Positions 1,528 through 26,935 of a DNA stretch of 29,092 nt are shown one piece after another. A program made the translations under genes and the position numbers. The DNA is from a virus. Each line of letters begins with the position of its first letter. Position 1 is the first letter of the stretch. The notes under the pieces were generated by a model, which saw only the letters and a list, made by a program, of their open reading frames with translations, searched no databases and had not been told where the DNA came from. The stretch covers positions 1 through 29,092 of IMG/VR virus record IMGVR_UViG_3300000101_000103; one strand, 5' to 3'.

Positions 1528-2172
1528 ATGAGCAAAAGCAAATTTCATATTTTAAGTATTGATAGTTACCAAACTTATGACTGGCTACTACATAAACATT
1601 ATGCCAAACGAATACCAAGTATTTCTTTTGCTTTTGGATTGTATGATGAAAACAACATAATGCAAGGGATAATAACTTATGGAAAACCTGCTTCTCCAAG
1701 TTTATGTGATGGTGTTTGCGGTGTTGAAAATAGGGATTACGTTTATGAGTTGAATAGACTTTGTGTAAATGATGGATTGCCTAAGAATACACTTTCTTTT
1801 TTTGTAGCTCAAAGCTTGAAATCTTTACCACCATTGATAATTGTTTCATATGCTGATACTGCCCAAAATCATAATGGCTACATTTACCAGGCTACAAATT
1901 GGATTTATACAGGTGCAACAAAAGAAAGAACCGACATAGGTAGTGAAGATGGTAGTCATAGTAGACATTATGATAAAAACATAGATTACACAAAAAATAG
2001 AAAGTTTAGAAGTAGTAAACACCGTTATATAAACTTTACTGGAACTAAAAAGCAAAAGAAATACTGGCGTAATTGCTTAAAATATGAAATTTGCGATTAT
2101 CCAAAAGGCGAAAACATTAGGTATGATGCAAGCTATAAACCAAGCGTACAGGCTCGTCTTTTTTTATTATAA
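1528..2172 (+). CDS. Mom-family DNA adenine modification protein (GNAT-like), copy 1
   Basis: 214 residues. The pattern matches the phage Mu Mom family: KHYAKRIPS with His24-Tyr25, ELNRLCV at 74-80, LPKNTLS, SYAD at 107-110, and GYIYQATNWIYTG at 117-129. Mu Mom converts adenine in phage DNA to a methylcarbamoyl form that resists host restriction; that activity is known for Mu and inferred here. The start at 1528 has a purine-rich GACAGG upstream. The gene sits alone between attC-like site A and a half site, bracketed by 27-bp direct repeats, so it looks like a cassette acquired separately from the second Mom-family gene at 21.2-21.9 kb, from which it is strongly diverged. The basic C-terminal half (KKQKKYWRN and around) could contact DNA. 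Confidence 0.75.
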   Translation: MSKSKFHILSIDSYQTYDWLLHKHYAKRIPSISFAFGLYDENNIMQGIITYGKPASPSLCDGVCGVENRDYVYELNRLCVNDGLPKNTLSFFVAQSLKSLPPLIIVSYADTAQNHNGYIYQATNWIYTGATKERTDIGSEDGSHSRHYDKNIDYTKNRKFRSSKHRYINFTGTKKQKKYWRNCLKYEICDYPKGENIRYDASYKPSVQARLFLL

Positions 2173-18312: not shown

Positions 18313-18858
18313 TTATTTTAATTTAATTGAATCTATTATTAGTTGTGAATATTCGCTTACTATTTCGTTTTCAAATTTAGTCAAAAGTTTATCATTTACC
18401 ACGTCTGAAAAGAAGTTAGTAGGCTTCAAACCGTCACGCCATATCTTGTAAGCTATCGCATAAGCTACCTTATTCAATGCCTTATCAATGTTTGATTGTC
18501 TGTTTTTGCCCGTTGATTTTCTTGCAGCTCTAAAGTCATCGCCTACGATTGAACGGTTGATCATAAAGGCTCTAATCGCTGATATTGGTGGTCTTTTGTT
18601 GGTGTACTTGAAACGGCTTATTCCTTTGTTATTTACTGCACCACTTACCCCTTCATCCATAAAAATGTAATAACTTGGCATTGCGATTGTAATTTCAAAA
18701 CCTTCGCTTTGCATTGTAACGGGCTGCATATTAAACGCCCCGATTGATTGAGCAGTAACTCCGCTTGCATACCTTCCAACGTCTTTAAGCGATTGCACCA
18801 AGTCATCAATCACTTTCTGCCAAAATCCGTTTATATTGTCGTAAATTTCATCATTCAT
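18313..18858 (-). CDS. HK97 gp10-like minor head-tail protein
   Basis: 181 residues. YASGVTAQSIGAF near residue 31 and YYIFMDEGVSGAVNNKG near 83 form the pattern of HK97 gp10-like / virion morphogenesis proteins (a short beta domain with tyrosine-rich strand and a G-rich turn), followed by basic ARKSTGKNRQSNIDKALNKV and a helical C-terminus. This family completes the neck or joins head and tail. It overlaps the frameshift extension by 4 nt. Confidence 0.6.
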   Translation of the reverse strand: MNDEIYDNINGFWQKVIDDLVQSLKDVGRYASGVTAQSIGAFNMQPVTMQSEGFEITIAMPSYYIFMDEGVSGAVNNKGISRFKYTNKRPPISAIRAFMINRSIVGDDFRAARKSTGKNRQSNIDKALNKVAYAIAYKIWRDGLKPTNFFSDVVNDKLLTKFENEIVSEYSQLIIDSIKLK

Positions 18859-19106
18859 TTGTTGCTCATTTTCGCTTTTAAGTCGTCGTTCTTTTCTTTA
18901 TTATAAGCCCACCAATTCATAAATTCAATAACGCCAATCTCTTGAACTTGCTCAATTGATATGCCTAATGTCTTTGCAACCATTTCAAGAATTATGAACC
19001 AGCTCCATCGTCCTTCAAAAGTTGCTTCGCCTGCTTCACCGTCTTGTTCATCTCCTCCGCTAAATAGTCCTCTGTAATTTTTAAGTATCTCCAGTACAAA
19101 TTCAAA
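18855..19106 (-). CDS. Tail assembly chaperone, -1 frameshift extension (GT-type)
   Basis: The -1 frame continues from the slippery T-run with FEFVLEILKNYRG and ends at 18855. Joined after residue 164 of the upstream frame it adds 83 residues and makes a 247-residue protein. FEGRWSWFIILEMVAKTLGI is a recognisable GT-type pattern. In lambda the G and GT proteins chaperone the tape measure protein; the role here is inferred from that family. The stretch is open as far as 19127 in its own frame, but no good start codon occurs there, which supports expression by frameshifting. Confidence 0.7.
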   Translation of the reverse strand, partial: FEFVLEILKNYRGLFSGGDEQDGEAGEATFEGRWSWFIILEMVAKTLGISIEQVQEIGVIEFMNWWAYNKEKNDDLKAKMSNK

Positions 19107-19597
19107 AAAAAAACAAACACTCCCCAAACTTCGCTCAACTTCAAATCCTTTGCCGCCTCAGCACGTGAGAAAACATCATCTTTGATTTGTCCTTTGAATA
19201 CCTTATGCAATACCTTATCCGCAAATGTAGGCTTAGGAACTGCCATAATAGCAATAACCTTATGAATGTAATTAACTGGATTGCCTTCGCCTTTTATCGC
19301 TTCGCAAATGTCTATAAATTGACCGCTTGACATCTTGGAAGGGTCTTGAACTAACTTACACCTAACGCCACCAATAACCAATGTATTAACCTTTCGTTTT
19401 TCATATTTCCTTAAATCAATGGTAGTGTATTCGTGAAGATACTTTTTGAACTCATTTGTTTTCCATTTCCTTACCTCGTCTAAGGTCTTATCCTCAATAG
19501 TGCAGATAGTCTTTAAACCTTTTGTGATTTCGTTATCGTCATCAAGGTTTACAATTTTTTGATATTTCCCGATTGTTAATTTATCTATTATGGTCAT
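18992..19597 (-). CDS. Tail assembly chaperone (G-type)
   Basis: 201 residues in the zero frame, starting MTIIDKLTIGKYQKIVNLDD. LTIGKYQ and the following helix pattern ITKGLKTICTIEDKTLDEVR match chaperone families placed before tail genes in Bacteroidota phages. WGVFVFFLNLYWRY near residue 155 sits on the slippery site. GGTACATT lies 7 nt before the ATG. Unusually for a chaperone it is separated from the tape measure gene by five genes. Confidence 0.7.
   Translation of the reverse strand: MTIIDKLTIGKYQKIVNLDDDNEITKGLKTICTIEDKTLDEVRKWKTNEFKKYLHEYTTIDLRKYEKRKVNTLVIGGVRCKLVQDPSKMSSGQFIDICEAIKGEGNPVNYIHKVIAIMAVPKPTFADKVLHKVFKGQIKDDVFSRAEAAKDLKLSEVWGVFVFFLNLYWRYLKITEDYLAEEMNKTVKQAKQLLKDDGAGS
19104..19113 (-). 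promoter_or_regulatory. Slippery T-run for -1 frameshifting
   Basis: Ten T on the minus strand, read GTT TTT TTT TTG in the zero frame, so T TTT TTT is correctly phased as an X XXY YYZ heptamer. A -1 slip reads TTT GAA and enters the GT-type frame; a +1 slip gives TGA. A run of ten T could also cause polymerase slippage. Confidence 0.75.
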
Positions 19598-19615: not shown

Positions 19616-20764
19616 TTAAAGGAATTGATATTCACCGTATCCGCTGCCATTCATATTCGTATAAACGAAATAACGTAAACTGTCAACCCCGTGGTTAAAC
19701 CTATCTACTGGATCATTTGAATAGTTACCGTCTTTGTCTTGTTTGTATTTGTAGTTTTTGAACTCCTTTATTAAGTTTTCGCTTGATGGGTGTATATTGA
19801 TTTTATAACGTCTAAGCAAGTCGATTCCTGCTCTTATACTGTCTGGACCTTTGTTTGCACCTCGCACCAATACGCCACCCCTTGATAACTCTTCAATGCT
19901 CTTAGGTTCGGCACTATCTGCAACTATCTCACCTTGCAATTCTAATTCCTTTATTCGTTCTGCAATGTCTTGGTTTGTCATACCGGTACGCCAGATTAAT
20001 TCACGCAGCCACAATTCACCGTCCATCATTCTAACTTCAATTAATGTAGTAGGGTCATTTGTAAATCCAAAGTCCATTCCGTAGCCTTTCAATTCAATTG
20101 CATTCGGATCAAATGCTTTGACTTCCCAATTAGAGAATACAACCCCTCTAATCATAGCCTTTTGACCTAATCCGTAAACCTGCCAATAGTATTCATCAAC
20201 TTCTTTTAATCGCTCAATTTCGTTAATAGTGCTTGCATCTAAAAAAGGGTTATCCTTGTACGTGGTGACAAAGTAATCGCAATCATCACGGCTCACCACT
20301 TCATCATAAATCCAGAAGTCTTCACTTGGATTGAAGTCGCAAATCATTCGTTCCGTTGTTCTGATGTTGAGCTGAAAGTAATCTTCCTTTGTTAGTTCGT
20401 TTGCCTCGTTGATAAAACAAATGTTTCTTTTACGACCTCTAATCTTTTGCGGTGTGTCTATTGATATAAACTCAAATAAGCAGCCATTCAGCTTGTACGT
20501 ACTTTCAGTCTTGTTGTGGTTCTTCTCTGAATACATACCCATATTATTGAGTATTTCAAAGAAGTCACGCATTACTGATGTACGGAGTGATGGGAACGAT
20601 TTACGCACTATTGAAAATGTTAGCCCTTTACGTCTTAAAGATGTAACAATTAACCAGATTAAGATGTTATATGTTTTTGCCGACCTTGTGCCGCCCTGCT
20701 CAACTATAAAGCGTTTGTCACTTTCTTCTAAGTGTTCAAATATGACGGAGGTTTGTAATTTCAC
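19616..20764 (-). CDS. terL: Terminase large subunit
   Basis: 382 residues. Walker A GGTRSAKT at 24-31, Walker B ICFINEANE at 115-123, and coupling motifs around SVMRDFFEIL. The nuclease domain follows with YGMDFGFTNDPTTLIE (first acidic residue), IVADSAEPKSIEEL (second) and DRFNHGVDSLRYF (third), the RNase H-like metal site. It cleaves concatemeric DNA and pumps it into the prohead through the portal. It is short, as in PBSX-type (Terminase_3) enzymes. It overlaps the small subunit by 4 nt. Confidence 0.9.
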   Translation of the reverse strand: MKLQTSVIFEHLEESDKRFIVEQGGTRSAKTYNILIWLIVTSLRRKGLTFSIVRKSFPSLRTSVMRDFFEILNNMGMYSEKNHNKTESTYKLNGCLFEFISIDTPQKIRGRKRNICFINEANELTKEDYFQLNIRTTERMICDFNPSEDFWIYDEVVSRDDCDYFVTTYKDNPFLDASTINEIERLKEVDEYYWQVYGLGQKAMIRGVVFSNWEVKAFDPNAIELKGYGMDFGFTNDPTTLIEVRMMDGELWLRELIWRTGMTNQDIAERIKELELQGEIVADSAEPKSIEELSRGGVLVRGANKGPDSIRAGIDLLRRYKINIHPSSENLIKEFKNYKYKQDKDGNYSNDPVDRFNHGVDSLRYFVYTNMNGSGYGEYQFL

Positions 20765-21108
20765 TCACCTTTGATAATTTCTATTTTGAGGTTTAAGTCA
20801 CCACCATCTAAACCAGTTACCTCGTGCCGTTCTATGTATCCACGTTTTTTTGCTTTGGTCTTTAAAAAAAATATAGTGCTGGTTGAATTACCTTCTTTGA
20901 TTTGTTTGTGGAGTTGACTCTCGGCAAAGTCTATTGTCATATCTTCTATTGATAAAACCTTTGCAGCATAGTCCTCGTCTGACTTCATCCAATTGTAATG
21001 CGTACCTCTATCAATGCCAACCGACTTGCAAGCGGTGGTTACTATTCCTAGCGATTTTTCTAATGCTTCAATCATTGCCTTTTTTAATGTTGAATTTTGT
21101 TGATTCAT
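20761..21108 (-). CDS. terS: Terminase small subunit
   Basis: 115 residues. LEKSLGIVTTACKSVGIDRG then THYNWMKSDEDYAAKV is an N-terminal helix-turn-helix that binds the packaging site, and FAESQLHKQIKEGNSTSTIF forms the oligomerisation part, followed by KTKAKKRGYIERHE, typical of PBSX-type small terminases. It delivers DNA to the large subunit encoded next. Its start is 27 nt from the tRNA gene on the other strand. Confidence 0.75.
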   Translation of the reverse strand: MNQQNSTLKKAMIEALEKSLGIVTTACKSVGIDRGTHYNWMKSDEDYAAKVLSIEDMTIDFAESQLHKQIKEGNSTSTIFFLKTKAKKRGYIERHEVTGLDGGDLNLKIEIIKGE

Positions 21109-21134: not shown

Positions 21135-21205
21135 GCGGTATTGGTGTAACGGTTGCACGCTTGACATTCCAGTCAAGAGGTAAAGTTCGAATCTATTATA
21201 CCGCT
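21135..21205 (+). tRNA. tRNA-Gly(TCC)-like gene, divergent arms
   Basis: A 71-nt cloverleaf. The acceptor stem GCGGTAT/ATACCGC is perfect (7 bp), followed by T as discriminator. D arm GTGT/GCAC with an AACGGTT loop. Anticodon arm CTTGAC/GTCAAG gives loop ATTCCA with U33, anticodon TCC and A37, one base short of the usual loop (or eight bases if the last pair opens). G1-C72, C35, C36 and U73 are glycine identity elements. The T arm TTCGAAT loop is normal but its stem has only 3 of 5 pairs unless an A is bulged. No CCA is encoded. It overlaps the 3' end of the Mom-family gene antisense by 33 nt. Confidence 0.75.
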
Positions 21206-21862
21206 CTTTTTTCTTTCGGCTAAACTTATTTTTTTGCCCTTATACATTCCTGCACCTTGTTTATCTATTTCGCTAAATGGTAATATTGGAACAGTTATTT
21301 TGCAAGTTTTGTCAATTAGGTAAATGTATTTTAATTGCTTTCCTTTAAATGGTTTCCAATTTTTAAACTCGATACTCATTTTTAAATGGTGTGCTTGTAT
21401 AACGTGCATTGCATCTCCAGTTTCTGGATTCATTCTTAAAGCGGTATTGTCTACAATTCCAACTAATTTAAAACCACTTGCTCTATAAATAGTACCATCC
21501 CCGCACTGAGTGCCGTCAGCAAAACTTATTATCCATTTTATTTGTGGTGCATTCTTTTTAATTAATTTAATACTAATTGCAATACATCTACTTTCTGAAT
21601 ATTTTGGTAGGTAATCATCAAAAGCCATTCTGTTTAATTCAATAAACTCATTCCAACCCGTACCATCTACAAGATTAATAGTTCCTTTTTTATTTATGCT
21701 TGGACCATATTGCATAACACCGTGCAATTTATTATCTAAAAAACAACCAAAATGCAATGTGCTATTTGGAACTACTTTACCGCTATAATGATGCTTTTTT
21801 ACAAACTCATTAGCAACCTTAGCTGGTATTACTTTTACTATTATATCTTTTGCTCTGCCCAT
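21173..21862 (-). CDS. Mom-family DNA adenine modification protein, copy 2
   Basis: 229 residues. KKHHYSGKVVPNS (His24/His25-Tyr26), FGCFLDNKLHGVMQYG, ELNRMAFDDYLPKYS at 75-89, SFADGTQCGDGTIYRASGF at 113-131 and the basic C-terminus follow the same order as Mu Mom. The role is probably to modify adenines in phage DNA against restriction. It overlaps the ParB-like gene upstream by 22 nt, so the two are co-translated, just before packaging genes. The last ten codons (SGIIDSNFTS) are antisense to the tRNA and are probably not conserved. It differs strongly from the copy at 1.5-2.2 kb. Confidence 0.75.
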   Translation of the reverse strand: MGRAKDIIVKVIPAKVANEFVKKHHYSGKVVPNSTLHFGCFLDNKLHGVMQYGPSINKKGTINLVDGTGWNEFIELNRMAFDDYLPKYSESRCIAISIKLIKKNAPQIKWIISFADGTQCGDGTIYRASGFKLVGIVDNTALRMNPETGDAMHVIQAHHLKMSIEFKNWKPFKGKQLKYIYLIDKTCKITVPILPFSEIDKQGAGMYKGKKISLAERKKSGIIDSNFTS

Positions 21863-22434
21863 TGCATTACGATTAAATATAAAGCGTTGCCGTTGCTGTT
21901 TTCGTTACCCATAGTTTCGCAGTATTTATATTCCTCTGTTTGTTTAATATCCGCTATTCCGTTTTTTATTTGCTCTGCTTGCTCATCTGCAAGAGTGAAA
22001 GTCATTTGTTGAAAGGGTGATTTATCCCCATCAGGCAAACTAAACTCTTCGCTTGTATCTATATCATCAATGTTTTGCCAACTATCCAAACCCCAATCTT
22101 CCAACTCTTGGCTATTCCATTCATTACCCAAAATATCCCAATCCCACTCGCCAAAGCCAACATTATCCTTAATGATAAATTGTCGTTGTTGTTCTTCTGT
22201 TAATTCAGATGCAATCAATACTGGAACTTCTTGCACTCCTAAATCTTGCAATGCTCTTAATCTCATATTGCCACCAAGTACCATCATATCAGCATCCACC
22301 ACTATTGGTCTAAGTTCTAACATTTCAGGAAATTCAGAAACAGAACGCTTCAGCTTCTCAAACTTTTCATCCTTTAAAACTCTTGGGTTTTTTAGGTTTG
22401 GTTTTATGTCTTTGATTTTAACGTATTTCATCAA
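21841..22434 (-). CDS. ParB-like N-terminal domain protein
   Basis: 197 residues. VKIKDIKPNLKNPRVLKDEK then a helix, LRPIVVDADMMVLGGNMRLR with GGNMRLRA at 54-61 as the ParB box that binds CTP in ParB family members, and ERQFIIKDNVGFGEWDWDIL-like text at 82-101. The C-terminal LTFTLADEQAEQIKNGIAD-type segment is a second small domain. In phages such proteins often accompany DNA-modification enzymes and terminases; overlap with a Mom-family gene is consistent with that. Nuclease or partition roles are both possible. Confidence 0.7.
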   Translation of the reverse strand: MMKYVKIKDIKPNLKNPRVLKDEKFEKLKRSVSEFPEMLELRPIVVDADMMVLGGNMRLRALQDLGVQEVPVLIASELTEEQQRQFIIKDNVGFGEWDWDILGNEWNSQELEDWGLDSWQNIDDIDTSEEFSLPDGDKSPFQQMTFTLADEQAEQIKNGIADIKQTEEYKYCETMGNENSNGNALYLIVMQWAEQKI

Positions 22435-22630: not shown

Positions 22631-22846
22631 TTAACTATTTTCTTTTAAATACTTTATAACCTTGTTAGCGTTACGAGCTATGCAATCACCGCAACTTAAA
22701 TCAACTCTAAACTGGAACATTGATTGACACCACTTTTGAAATTCCTTAGCTTCGTGAGGTTCAAACCTTAGTTCTTGAGATTTGTCAAACTCCATTAGTT
22801 TGTTTATTACTTCCTTAGATAGTTTCAAATCTTGTTCGGTTTTCAT
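22631..22846 (-). CDS. Hypothetical protein with CGDC motif, 71 residues
   Basis: Begins MKTEQDLKLSKEVINKLMEF. The C-terminal FRVDLSCGDCIARNANKVIK has a CxxC pair that may bind metal. Related small proteins occur near the terminase in Bacteroidota phages. Its start overlaps the end of the fusion gene by 32 nt, a long overlap for this genome, so the ATG at 22846 is likely but not certain. Confidence 0.55.
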   Translation of the reverse strand: MKTEQDLKLSKEVINKLMEFDKSQELRFEPHEAKEFQKWCQSMFQFRVDLSCGDCIARNANKVIKYLKENS

Positions 22847-24248
22847 TTTTAAGTCTGTAATTCTTGGTTATATACTCGTGCAAACTTGCTGCCGTGTCAT
22901 TGACTGCATTTTGATTTTTAGCGAAGTACTTTATCATTTTATGCCATTCGGTATTGTTCGCTTTCAATCCGTTTTCTAAATGTTTGATGTGTTGCTTGTA
23001 TGGAAATACATTGGAAACTATAACCGCTTTCCCTTTTTGCCCTGCTTCGATTATCTTTAATTCAGATTTAAATGAGTTAAATTTATTATCAATTAGAGGC
23101 ACTAATACAATACCGTGATTATTAAATGTGTTGCCGTACTCTGTTAATGGCTCAAAAGGCTTTAAATTAGCTTTTGGAAACATCTTAGGCATATAATGTG
23201 ATTTTGGTATGTAACAATAAATAGTAAAGTCAACATCTTGTATCGCATCTTTTAATATTGATAAGTCACGCTTATGAGTTATACCTCCAGCCCACATAAA
23301 ACTATTTGTGTTTTCTGTTTTGTTCCACTGATCTTCATCTGAATCTAAGCAATTTTTAACCACGTGGACATTAGGATTAATCTTCATTATTTCGTCTTGC
23401 AGTCGCTTAGTTGCACACCATACAACATCAGCTAATTGAATGTTAGATTGAATGCAATTATTAAAATTTGTTTTCAAATGAAAATTGTATAAAAGATGAT
23501 TTTTTGGAACTTCCCAGTAATCATCAATGTCGCAGATTATTCTTATCCCACGTTTACGGAGTAAAGATATAACCAACTCAGGCTGCATCTTGCTCGATAT
23601 GTTACGGTTGAAGATAACGTGAGTTGTGTCTTTTGGCAGTTTGTCAATCCATTTATCAGCTTCGTTTCCTTCTGTTTGCGTGCCTATAATCTTAACATCT
23701 GATCCGTAAGCATTGGCAAAGTGGTGCATAGGAATAAACAGTCTGTGGTATTCAACAGCTTCAAAATTTGGCAATAATACAACTATATTCATTTGATTGT
23801 ATATCTTTTTAAACTCCTCCTTTGCTGCATTTATTCCATTTGCTACGCTCATATAGTTAATATTTGTTTTTGTTGCTATCCCTCTGTAACTGTCATTCTT
23901 GTAAAGCTCTAATAATCCACGTGAGTAGAAGTGCATTTTATCAAGTGTCCATTGCACTCGGTCTTTTCGCTCTTCAAAAGTAAAATCATTTTCTTCATCA
24001 AATAAATCATCTGGCAATTCTTGAAATGTTTTTGCGTTTCGTTGCTCTTTGAAATAGGTAAACTTCATCATTACAAAAAAGTATTGTCGGAGTTTGCCCA
24101 TTTGGATAATTTTTTCTATTTTGTCCTTCTTACTTAAACATTCTACCACGCACTTTGATATTAACTCCTCAGCATCGTTTCTATCTCCCGTTACCTTTTC
24201 AGCGTAACGCAATAGACCATCATCAGAATAAACATCTTCTAACCTCAA
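22815..24248 (-). CDS. Sigma-70-like domain fused to GT-B glycosyltransferase
   Basis: 477 residues with two unrelated parts. Residues 1-152 resemble an ECF-type sigma factor: region 2 with LLRYAEKVTGDRNDAEELIS, then YFFVMMKFTYFKEQRN, and region 4 with VQWTLDKMHFYSRGLLELYK and YRGIATKTNINYMSVANGIN followed by a basic helix. Residues 153-477 start at an internal Met (ATG at 23792) with MNIVVLLPNFEAVEYHRLF and run through RIICDIDDYWEVP, ADVVWCATKRLQDEI, MWAGGITHKRDLSI and HGIVLVPLIDNKFNSFKSEL, a group-1 type GT-B glycosyltransferase. The sigma part could direct phage promoters; the transferase could sugar-modify DNA, virion or host surface. Internal initiation at 23792 could also give the transferase alone. 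Confidence 0.7.
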   Translation of the reverse strand: MRLEDVYSDDGLLRYAEKVTGDRNDAEELISKCVVECLSKKDKIEKIIQMGKLRQYFFVMMKFTYFKEQRNAKTFQELPDDLFDEENDFTFEERKDRVQWTLDKMHFYSRGLLELYKNDSYRGIATKTNINYMSVANGINAAKEEFKKIYNQMNIVVLLPNFEAVEYHRLFIPMHHFANAYGSDVKIIGTQTEGNEADKWIDKLPKDTTHVIFNRNISSKMQPELVISLLRKRGIRIICDIDDYWEVPKNHLLYNFHLKTNFNNCIQSNIQLADVVWCATKRLQDEIMKINPNVHVVKNCLDSDEDQWNKTENTNSFMWAGGITHKRDLSILKDAIQDVDFTIYCYIPKSHYMPKMFPKANLKPFEPLTEYGNTFNNHGIVLVPLIDNKFNSFKSELKIIEAGQKGKAVIVSNVFPYKQHIKHLENGLKANNTEWHKMIKYFAKNQNAVNDTAASLHEYITKNYRLKNENRTRFETI

Positions 24249-24439
24249 TTTACTTCTATGCCATCATCCTCTAGTTCCAACCAATGCTTTACGGAGTACT
24301 GCTTGTATGGTTTAAGGTTGTTGTAAGTTACATCGTAGTTGCTATTAAGTAGCTCTAACTGCTCCTTGTATTCCTTTGGATAAGCCAACAATCTATCTAT
24401 TACTTGTTGGATTAGTTCTTTTCTTTCTTGTACGGTCAT
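24245..24439 (-). CDS. Hypothetical protein, 64 residues
   Basis: MTVQERKELIQQVIDRLLAY at the N-terminus, then YKEQLELLNSNYDVTYNNLK and a C-terminal KHWLELEDDGIEVN. Helical and acidic at the end. It overlaps both neighbours by 4 nt (ATGA), part of a tightly coupled chain of small early genes leading to the fusion gene. Not recognised. Confidence 0.55.
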   Translation of the reverse strand: MTVQERKELIQQVIDRLLAYPKEYKEQLELLNSNYDVTYNNLKPYKQYSVKHWLELEDDGIEVN

Positions 24440-24821: not shown

Positions 24822-24984
24822 TTACTTTAGTGTTGGTTAATCTCCACCCATCGCGGCTTAATCCGTTGGGTATTCTGTGAGCGTTCAAAGTTAATTCAAT
24901 TAATCTTTGTTTGTCGGCTAGTGAGCCTGCTACATCAGCTTCTAATGTTCGGCCTTGTTTTGATATTGTTGTTGTTATTTTCAT
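24814..24984 (-). CDS. Hypothetical protein, 56 residues
   Basis: ATG at 24984 overlaps the HNH gene stop (ATGA); TAG at 24814-24816. MKITTTISKQGRTLEADVAG is followed by LNAHRIPNGLSRDGWRLTNT. Compact, basic. With the previous entry it fills the 335-bp stretch between the HNH gene and the 69-residue gene completely. Confidence 0.55.
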   Translation of the reverse strand: MKITTTISKQGRTLEADVAGSLADKQRLIELTLNAHRIPNGLSRDGWRLTNTKVND

Positions 24985-25286
24985 ATTTCTGTTTCATTAT
25001 GCCATAGGTTAAGTTTATCTCTCTTTTGGTGATGCTCACGACAAAGGATGTCTATGTTGTTTACATCCCAAGCTAATTCTGTTCTCCTTGTCTTTTGGGC
25101 CATATCAACGCTTACTCGGTGGGAGCAGTCAAGTCTTACACCTCCGCTTCGTTTACACTCCACGCAGAAGTTATATCCAAACTCATCACGCTGCAAAGAT
25201 AACGCCTTTTCTTTTGCGTTCCTTACAAGTGCATCTATCCTGCTCTTGCTTACTCTTTCTCCTTTGGATGTGTAGTAGTGGTTCAT
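24981..25286 (-). CDS. HNH endonuclease-like protein
   Basis: 101 residues. NFCVECKRSGGVRLDCSHRV holds a CxxC pair (41, 44) and DCSH; AWDVNNIDILCREHHQKRD holds the asparagine (Asn76/77) and C-x-x-HH end of the HNH (ββα-metal) fold. It nicks or cuts DNA; phage HNH proteins act in packaging or as homing nucleases. It overlaps by 4 nt the AP2-like gene upstream, which could supply DNA binding. Its place in the early region, far from the terminase, argues against a packaging role. Confidence 0.7.
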   Translation of the reverse strand: MNHYYTSKGERVSKSRIDALVRNAKEKALSLQRDEFGYNFCVECKRSGGVRLDCSHRVSVDMAQKTRRTELAWDVNNIDILCREHHQKRDKLNLWHNETEI

Positions 25287-25704: not shown

Positions 25705-26028
25705 TTATTTAATCTTACTTATTTCCTCAAAAAATTCTTTATTCACTTGTTGTACGCTCTTTTCGTTTACTTGCTCGGAGATGTAATACAGTTCTTCCAT
25801 ATCCTTCAACTTGCTTTGCATTTCACCTATTTTCATAATCAGCTTTGCATTCTCTTGTTCAAGCATATTTATTTCAACCTCTTTTAAGACCGTATAAGCC
25901 ACTAATTCTTCCAAAGTGGATATTCTATACTCTTGGTCGGTCTTATCGCCTTTAAACTTGCTTAAAATGGCTCTCATATCGTTTAATACGGTTCTTGCCT
26001 TCTTTGTTTTGTCGCTAAAATGGTTCAT
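25705..26028 (-). CDS. Coiled-coil protein, 107 residues
   Basis: Starts MNHFSDKTKKARTVLNDMRA and continues as almost uninterrupted helix with heptads (LEELVAYTVLKEVEINMLEQ; LIMKIGEMQSKLKDMEELYY). Probably a dimer or a binding partner. Located directly downstream of the helicase gene (14-nt overlap), so a role in replication is possible, but no specific family is recognised. Confidence 0.55.
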   Translation of the reverse strand: MNHFSDKTKKARTVLNDMRAILSKFKGDKTDQEYRISTLEELVAYTVLKEVEINMLEQENAKLIMKIGEMQSKLKDMEELYYISEQVNEKSVQQVNKEFFEEISKIK

Positions 26029-26935
26029 CGTCTGTTATTTGTTCAAATCCTAAATCGTTAATCGGGTCTTGCACTTGCTCTGGATTGCCGTATGCAAATA
26101 TCTTGTTTTGGTTGTAATTGTCCATCTCATAGAACTTTTGCTTTGCCCAATCAAAGTGCAGTAAGCATTCACCAATCTGCCCTGCGTGTTTTGGCTTAAT
26201 CTTATCTACTGAAACCGCATAAGGCTCATTGTAGTTGCTTTTGTCGTTCTTGTGGACTACTATTATGTTTCTACCATTGTTATTCCACTCACTACCTCCC
26301 ATTATGTGATACACGGTAGGTTTTTTAACATTCCCTTCCTTCACTTGCATTGGGTCTGGATTCTTTGGATGAATAATGATAAATGAGTGCATATTGTTGT
26401 CTTGGAAAAAGCTATTACGGTAGCTTAGTACTTGTCTAAGATAGTCTGGTCTTGTCGGATCTCCATTGTGAGCCATATAATTCCAACTATCAATTACCGC
26501 ACTATTGCATTTATGCTCTTTTGCAAAGCTCCAGAATGCTTTAGGTTCTTGTACACCTTTGGCAAACACAAAGTAATGGCAAACCTCGTTAATGTATCTA
26601 TGCACTTCTTGTTCTGTTATGCTATTCTGATAACCCTTTGTAAATGTTTTACCGTACATCTTATGGATTATATTAGATACAACCTCTACTTCTGTTCCAT
26701 CATCGGGCATATAGATTGCGTGTTTCCAATTATGGTTTACCGTTAGTGATACAATAATTTCTTTTAGGAGAAGTGATTTACCTCCAAATGGATAACCAGT
26801 AATGTCTGTACACCCACCTTGAATAAAAGTAATGTTCTCATCCATAGATTTCAGATTTGTTCCATAACCATTCGGTGGACCATTCTTTTGCAGATGCAGA
26901 AGTTCTTGCAGTATTTCATCTTGTGTTTTAATCAT
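26015..26935 (-). CDS. DnaB-like replicative helicase (RecA-fold)
   Basis: 306 residues. Walker A GYPFGGKS at 47-54, Walker B around CNSAVIDSWNYMAHNG, a QVLSYRNSFFQDNNMHSFII segment and HPKNPDPM near motif H3, and HIMGGSEWNNNGRNIIVVHK at the C-terminus, as in DnaB/Twinkle-like helicase cores. The DnaB N-terminal domain and any primase domain are absent, so it is a core-only enzyme. It is downstream of, and overlaps by 4 nt, the replication initiator, which may load it on the origin. Confidence 0.75.
   Translation of the reverse strand: MIKTQDEILQELLHLQKNGPPNGYGTNLKSMDENITFIQGGCTDITGYPFGGKSLLLKEIIVSLTVNHNWKHAIYMPDDGTEVEVVSNIIHKMYGKTFTKGYQNSITEQEVHRYINEVCHYFVFAKGVQEPKAFWSFAKEHKCNSAVIDSWNYMAHNGDPTRPDYLRQVLSYRNSFFQDNNMHSFIIIHPKNPDPMQVKEGNVKKPTVYHIMGGSEWNNNGRNIIVVHKNDKSNYNEPYAVSVDKIKPKHAGQIGECLLHFDWAKQKFYEMDNYNQNKIFAYGNPEQVQDPINDLGFEQITDDEPF

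Follow-up and report, generated by a model that had tools for sequence, protein, structure and literature searches.

A sigma-like domain fused to a GT-B glycosyltransferase in a phage protein, and its relatives in which the two are separate neighbouring genes

Introduction

The N-terminal half of the phage protein described here is closest to the ECF (group 4) sigma factors, especially those of families TIGR02985 and TIGR02937, with which it shares its length and the order sigma2-linker-sigma4, and whose models it matches almost throughout. It differs from them in scoring far below the curated cut-offs, in being carried by a phage, in its attached enzyme and in an altered region 2.2 signature. 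ECF sigma factors with extensions also carry an extra folded domain after sigma2-sigma4 in one chain, and those named in the available text of PMC3426412 and PMC8999054 are SnoaL-like, TPR, Cys-rich or membrane parts, with no glycosyltransferase among them. The extension of ECF41, ECF42 and ECF56 is SnoaL-like or TPR, whereas that of the fusion is a GT-B glycosyltransferase. In ECF248, glycosyltransferase genes are merely neighbours of the sigma gene, according to the available part of PMC8999054.

The C-terminal half has its counterpart in the phage glycosyltransferases of phrog_7162, such as phi92 gp164, which are complete, homologous GT-B enzymes. Unlike the fusion, enzymes of the gp164 type stand alone, lie amid other glycosyltransferase genes and have no annotated adjoining sigma-like partner.

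Phage-coded, sigma-like redirection of host RNA polymerase to late genes is the work of late transcription factors of the T4 gp55/gp33 type, and the early/late boundary of many phages is the place of late regulators. The fusion resembles gp55/gp33 in its proposed role; it has both sigma2- and sigma4-like parts and an attached enzyme. Phage sigma factors and gp33 are among the subjects discussed in the available text of PMC7824862. According to a preliminary description of this DNA, the join is not known from any described protein; the open-licence literature, as far as searched, likewise yielded no account of a sigma factor fused to a glycosyltransferase, which is not proof of absence.

Results

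Architecture of the fusion ORF

The stretch of DNA analysed (the window; 29,092 bases) spans an entire virus record of IMG/VR. The features of the fusion and its immediate upstream neighbour are as follows.

22815..24248, minus strand: sigma-like/glycosyltransferase fusion ORF, 477 aa; the TTG start overlaps the upstream TGA, and the uninterrupted architecture also occurs in relatives
24039..24248, minus strand: sigma2-like region, about residues 1-70 (TIGR02985/TIGR02937, Sigma70_r2, PDB profile search, SigL structural match)
23799..23957, minus strand: sigma4-like helix-turn-helix region, about residues 98-150 (TIGR02985 match to residue 148, HHalign, helices in a homologue model)
22818..23792, minus strand: GT-B glycosyltransferase domain, residues 153-477 (phrog_7162, E 1e-56; Z about 25 against GT4-type enzymes for the model of a homologue)
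23790..23792, minus strand: internal ATG (residue 153) at the domain junction, a possible internal start on reading the sequence
24245..24439, minus strand: small ORF upstream of the fusion, its TGA overlapping the TTG start of the fusion

The fusion ORF opens with TTG at 24248 and contains zero internal stops across its 477 codons, and consists of a compact sigma2-sigma4 (ECF-like) domain (residues 1-150) followed by a complete GT-B glycosyltransferase (residues 153-477). The existence of this fused ORF is confirmed. The overlap with the small upstream ORF is compatible with possible translational coupling of the two. The preliminary description had read the halves as an ECF-type sigma factor and a complete GT-B enzyme and had proposed a domain search of each; both calls proved right, residues 1-152 matching sigma profiles (TIGR02985, TIGR02937 and phrog_1740) and the C-terminal half matching the phrog_7162 glycosyltransferases.

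The sigma-like half

Among NCBIfam models, the window protein matched TIGR02985 (Bacteroides-type sigma-70 factor) at E 1e-7 over model positions 13-160 of 162, and TIGR02937 (sigma70-ECF) at E 1.7e-6 over positions 14-163 of 165. All twelve NCBIfam families listed for the protein were sigma factors, every score falling below the curated cut-off (32.3 vs 126.4 bits for TIGR02985; 27.8 vs 42.9 bits for TIGR02937). No Pfam sigma family scored above its cut-off with the window protein, and Sigma70_r2 was detected with weak scores (best E 0.0045) in five of six members of the fused family. The N-terminal half also matched phrog_1740 (RNA polymerase sigma factor; E 4e-6), and the top matches in a profile search of PDB sequences were to ECF sigma region 2 (E 0.02-0.04). 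DUF1912 matched one member only and was dropped.

Alignment of the fused family by HHalign with the ECF sigma factors of one Pseudomonas genome paired sigma2 and then sigma4 over 134 columns, at 74% probability and E 3e-6 with the corrected set (n = 20) and at 90% and E 2e-7 with an earlier set that included wrongly oriented sequences, each E-value referring to a single pairwise comparison. Since no control, whether one of nine neighbour families unrelated to it or one of 30 shuffles of the columns, exceeded 0.2% probability against these values of 74-90%, and since 74 distinct sequences repeat the arrangement (see below), the pairing of sigma-like domain and glycosyltransferase lies beyond chance.

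A weak structural model of the window protein (pLDDT 58.7) could be superimposed on M. tuberculosis SigL with Z 8.6 over 69 residues at 3.1 A; Foldseek matched this model to glycosyltransferases and to unrelated proteins, none of them informative on the sigma half. The model of a homologue, L042, was good (pLDDT 88.5, pTM 0.76) and placed helices at the positions expected for sigma2, linker and sigma4, while its list of structural matches was taken up by glycosyltransferases. Sigma2- and sigma4-like regions are present in order and joined by a linker, as judged from the nearly full-length TIGR02985 and TIGR02937 matches, HHalign and the L042 helices. Taken from several profile comparisons, with scores below the curated cut-offs where such exist, the evidence points to a sigma-like, more precisely ECF-like, N-terminal half. 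In the region 2.2 signature, a QE pair kept in many stand-alone forms of the domain (DDLRQEV) is replaced in the fused forms (EELISIA), and core binding may therefore be altered or lost.

The glycosyltransferase half

Membership of phrog_7162 was clear for the window protein and for two relatives (E 1e-56 for the window, 3e-50 for L016 and 4e-59 for L163). The double Rossmann GT-B fold was seen in the L042 model, residues 135-450 of which matched GT-B, GT4-type enzymes with Z about 25 over about 290 residues at an rmsd of about 3 A. The unfused L016 enzyme shares the motifs YHR, CDxD, GxxxHxxD, FN, KS and LKxxE with the fused enzymes, unchanged or almost unchanged. Inspection of the glycosyltransferase alignments by eye showed F-N, K-S and L-K-x-x-E to be invariant, and the classical EX7E motif to be incomplete, its second Glu being invariant and its first position not Glu.

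The glycosyltransferase domain could instead be a regulatory extension of the sigma domain that senses a nucleotide-sugar, comparable to the SnoaL-like or TPR extensions of some ECF groups; N- or C-terminal extensions predicted to be regulatory occur in at least 26 ECF groups, according to the available text of PMC8999054. However, fused and separate enzymes do not differ in these motifs, and the same enzyme also exists alone, phi92 gp164 being an example, which favours retained catalysis; we hold a regulatory extension to be very unlikely.

The preliminary description had raised an internal start, and one gene might yield two proteins, the full-length fusion and a stand-alone glycosyltransferase made by an internal start (or by cleavage) at the junction. 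Codon 153 of the window protein is an ATG, where stand-alone glycosyltransferases begin, and all 14 members checked have ATG or TTG two to seven codons ahead of the first glycosyltransferase strand. Synonymous variation, however, shows no dip at the junction, and the place of the start-like codon varies between subgroups; we consider two products unlikely.

Sigma-like and glycosyltransferase genes as separate neighbours

Unfused relatives of the glycosyltransferase were recovered by a broader scan with this domain. In 34 of the 37 unfused loci that had at least 4.5 kb of upstream sequence, the glycosyltransferase gene was preceded on its own strand by a stand-alone sigma-like gene, at distances from 0.2 kb upwards, some of these being near-copies, so that the cases are not all independent. 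The two genes were about 0.2 kb apart in L016/L158 and L159. In the group L161-L186 the distance was about 0.5 kb, with a membrane-protein-like small ORF and a CxxC protein between, and in a third group it was 1.7-3.9 kb. Several unfused glycosyltransferases adjoin genes that, by eye, resemble sugar-modification genes. Examples of the small stand-alone sigma-like proteins near terminase and glycosyltransferase genes are given by locus.

L163, 4986-5489: stand-alone sigma-like protein
L159, 1122-1673: stand-alone sigma-like protein
L016, 4247-4801: stand-alone sigma-like protein
L224, 2980-3483: stand-alone sigma-like protein

The stand-alone family aligned with the fused N-terminal domain at 97% probability in HHalign (E 5.6e-11) and with ECF sigma factors at 82%, and an HMM of the fused domain directly found 22 stand-alone proteins at E <= 1e-5. 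The L163 protein matched TIGR02937 at E 0.007; no convincing Pfam or PHROG family match was obtained for the stand-alone proteins. The separate-gene state is linked to the fusion, and the suggestion in the preliminary description that two adjacent genes had been joined agrees with the neighbours found in these relatives. We infer the intermediate steps: genes between the sigma-like gene and the glycosyltransferase would have been lost or moved, and an in-frame join would have followed, which is the likely path.

Age and conservation of the join

Independently assembled contigs of IMG/VR contained 74 distinct sequences of the fused ORF. Contigs recovered by scanning IMG/VR, with identities of 71%, 50% and about 35%, all carried the join without interruption, and among fused relatives the identity of the sigma part falls as low as about 30%. 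All close relatives of the glycosyltransferase whose contigs reached far enough upstream were fused. In a maximum-likelihood tree of the glycosyltransferase domain, the 15 fused rows were set apart from all others by a branch with support 100/100. Because all sampled fused glycosyltransferases make one clade, which includes divergent members, the tree points to a single old fusion event among the sampled sequences. Within one subgroup of close relatives, the sigma part had a dN/dS of 0.060 and the glycosyltransferase part one of 0.066; purifying selection acts on the two halves to a similar degree there.

The preliminary description had also raised a recent loss of the stop between the two genes. 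That the relatives have separate neighbouring genes would fit such an event, or a frameshift or an error of assembly confined to this genome, but the uninterrupted join is common to divergent, independently assembled phages, is repeated in the 74 distinct sequences of one old clade, and has purifying selection acting on both its halves. A recent stop loss is thereby refuted, and we regard an artefact or accident of this kind as ruled out, with practically no chance of being correct.

One scan of bacterial genome contigs (genome_contigs) yielded no fused relatives and two Pseudomonas matches to the glycosyltransferase only. In tblastn searches of cultured phages, the N-terminal domain and the stand-alone sigma-like proteins gave nothing meaningful; the glycosyltransferase alone gave matches.

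Genomic neighbourhood

The best cultured matches of the window terminase and primase/helicase were largely to phages of Bacteroidota (Flavobacterium, Riemerella and Cellulophaga) at 35-40% identity, and the host is therefore probably a member of the Bacteroidota. In the order usual among 20 mapped loci, replication genes come first, followed by HNH and small genes and then by the fusion, a small CxxC protein, a ParB-like protein whose C-terminal part is often longer, the small and large terminase subunits and head-tail genes; contig ends and single loci show departures from it. The corresponding features of the window are listed.

26015..26935, minus strand: primase/helicase-like replication protein, conserved upstream
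24981..25286, minus strand: HNH endonuclease, conserved upstream neighbour
22631..22846, minus strand: CxxC protein of 71 aa whose ORF overlaps that of the fusion at the 3' end of the latter; homologue downstream in 19 of the 20 loci drawn, L091 being the exception
21841..22434, minus strand: ParB_N-domain protein, conserved downstream neighbour
20761..21108, minus strand: terminase small subunit-like protein, conserved cluster C6 adjoining TerL, its putative role assigned from position
19616..20764, minus strand: terminase large subunit
21173..21862, minus strand: Mom-family gene (PF25680, phage Mu DNA-modification type), E 3e-50
1528..2172, plus strand: second Mom-family gene (PF25680), E 3e-34

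The CxxC protein is possibly a partner of the sigma-like domain; by eye, it lacks the HxxxCxxC spacing of zinc anti-sigma factors. CxxC proteins accompany the sigma/glycosyltransferase cassette in fused loci and also occur near the separate genes.

Other features of the window were recorded. The ParB_N gene encodes 197 aa, and the proteins of several relatives in this position are longer, at about 360-420 aa, and apparently end in a DNA methyltransferase domain; the ParB_N gene of the window is instead followed by an overlapping Mom gene, as if a module had been exchanged. Two ORFs overlap at about 18855-19597 (minus strand), where a T run (T_TTT_TTT type) near 19101-19112 is conserved in relatives; this is a candidate site of programmed -1 frameshifting of the kind known from tail assembly chaperones. 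ARAGORN reported a tRNA-like structure with an undefined anticodon at 21135-21206 (plus strand).

The Mom genes and the altered region 2.2 signature speak for the idea that the sigma-like domain is no longer a sigma factor, and has become a DNA- or RNA-polymerase-docking module which brings the glycosyltransferase to its target, either modified phage DNA or the polymerase. Such a role is consistent with the invariance of the glycosyltransferase motifs in fused and separate forms and with the occurrence of T4 alpha-glucosyltransferase, a DNA glycosyltransferase, among the GT-B fold matches of the weak window model, though not specifically. On the other hand, stand-alone sigma-like relatives occur without an attached enzyme, the window ORFs showed no pathway for hydroxymethylated bases, and the sugar-modification-like genes beside several unfused glycosyltransferases (judged by eye) point to glycan targets. 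We hold this role to be rather improbable. A more specific form, in which the sigma-like domain would dock the enzyme on RNA polymerase or promoter DNA and the glycosyltransferase would glycosylate the transcription machinery or DNA there, seems to us quite unlikely; if true, such docked glycosylation would be a form of phage transcription take-over undescribed as far as we have seen.

Discussion

We interpret the window protein as a two-domain phage protein that arose by one old fusion of neighbouring ECF-like sigma and GT-B genes and in which both parts may be functional, a reading we hold with roughly even confidence. The architecture, its conservation, its single origin among the sampled sequences and the linked separate genes are observed; the functions are proposed. 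The sigma-like half would bind the core RNA polymerase of the host at about the time when replication gives way to packaging, and would steer the polymerase to phage genes, and the glycosyltransferase half would use a nucleotide-sugar as donor and attach its sugar to an acceptor, a glycan or another molecule. Fusion would co-express and tether two parts already working within one gene cassette. The late sigma role is proposed mainly because the fusion sits at the boundary between replication and terminase genes, that is, the early/late boundary. A conserved gap before cluster C10 was considered as the site of a late promoter and turned out to be coding; a consensus promoter search gave matches at chance level, and no late promoter was recognised.

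A phage lineage has joined a transcription-factor-like domain to a sugar-transferring enzyme, and selection has continued to act on both; this suggests a functional link between gene switching and glycosylation in infection. The occurrence of separate and fused states together provides a clear test case for the origin of a fusion. The small phage sigma-like family that travels with the glycosyltransferase near terminase genes may be a late transcription switch of many uncultured phages.
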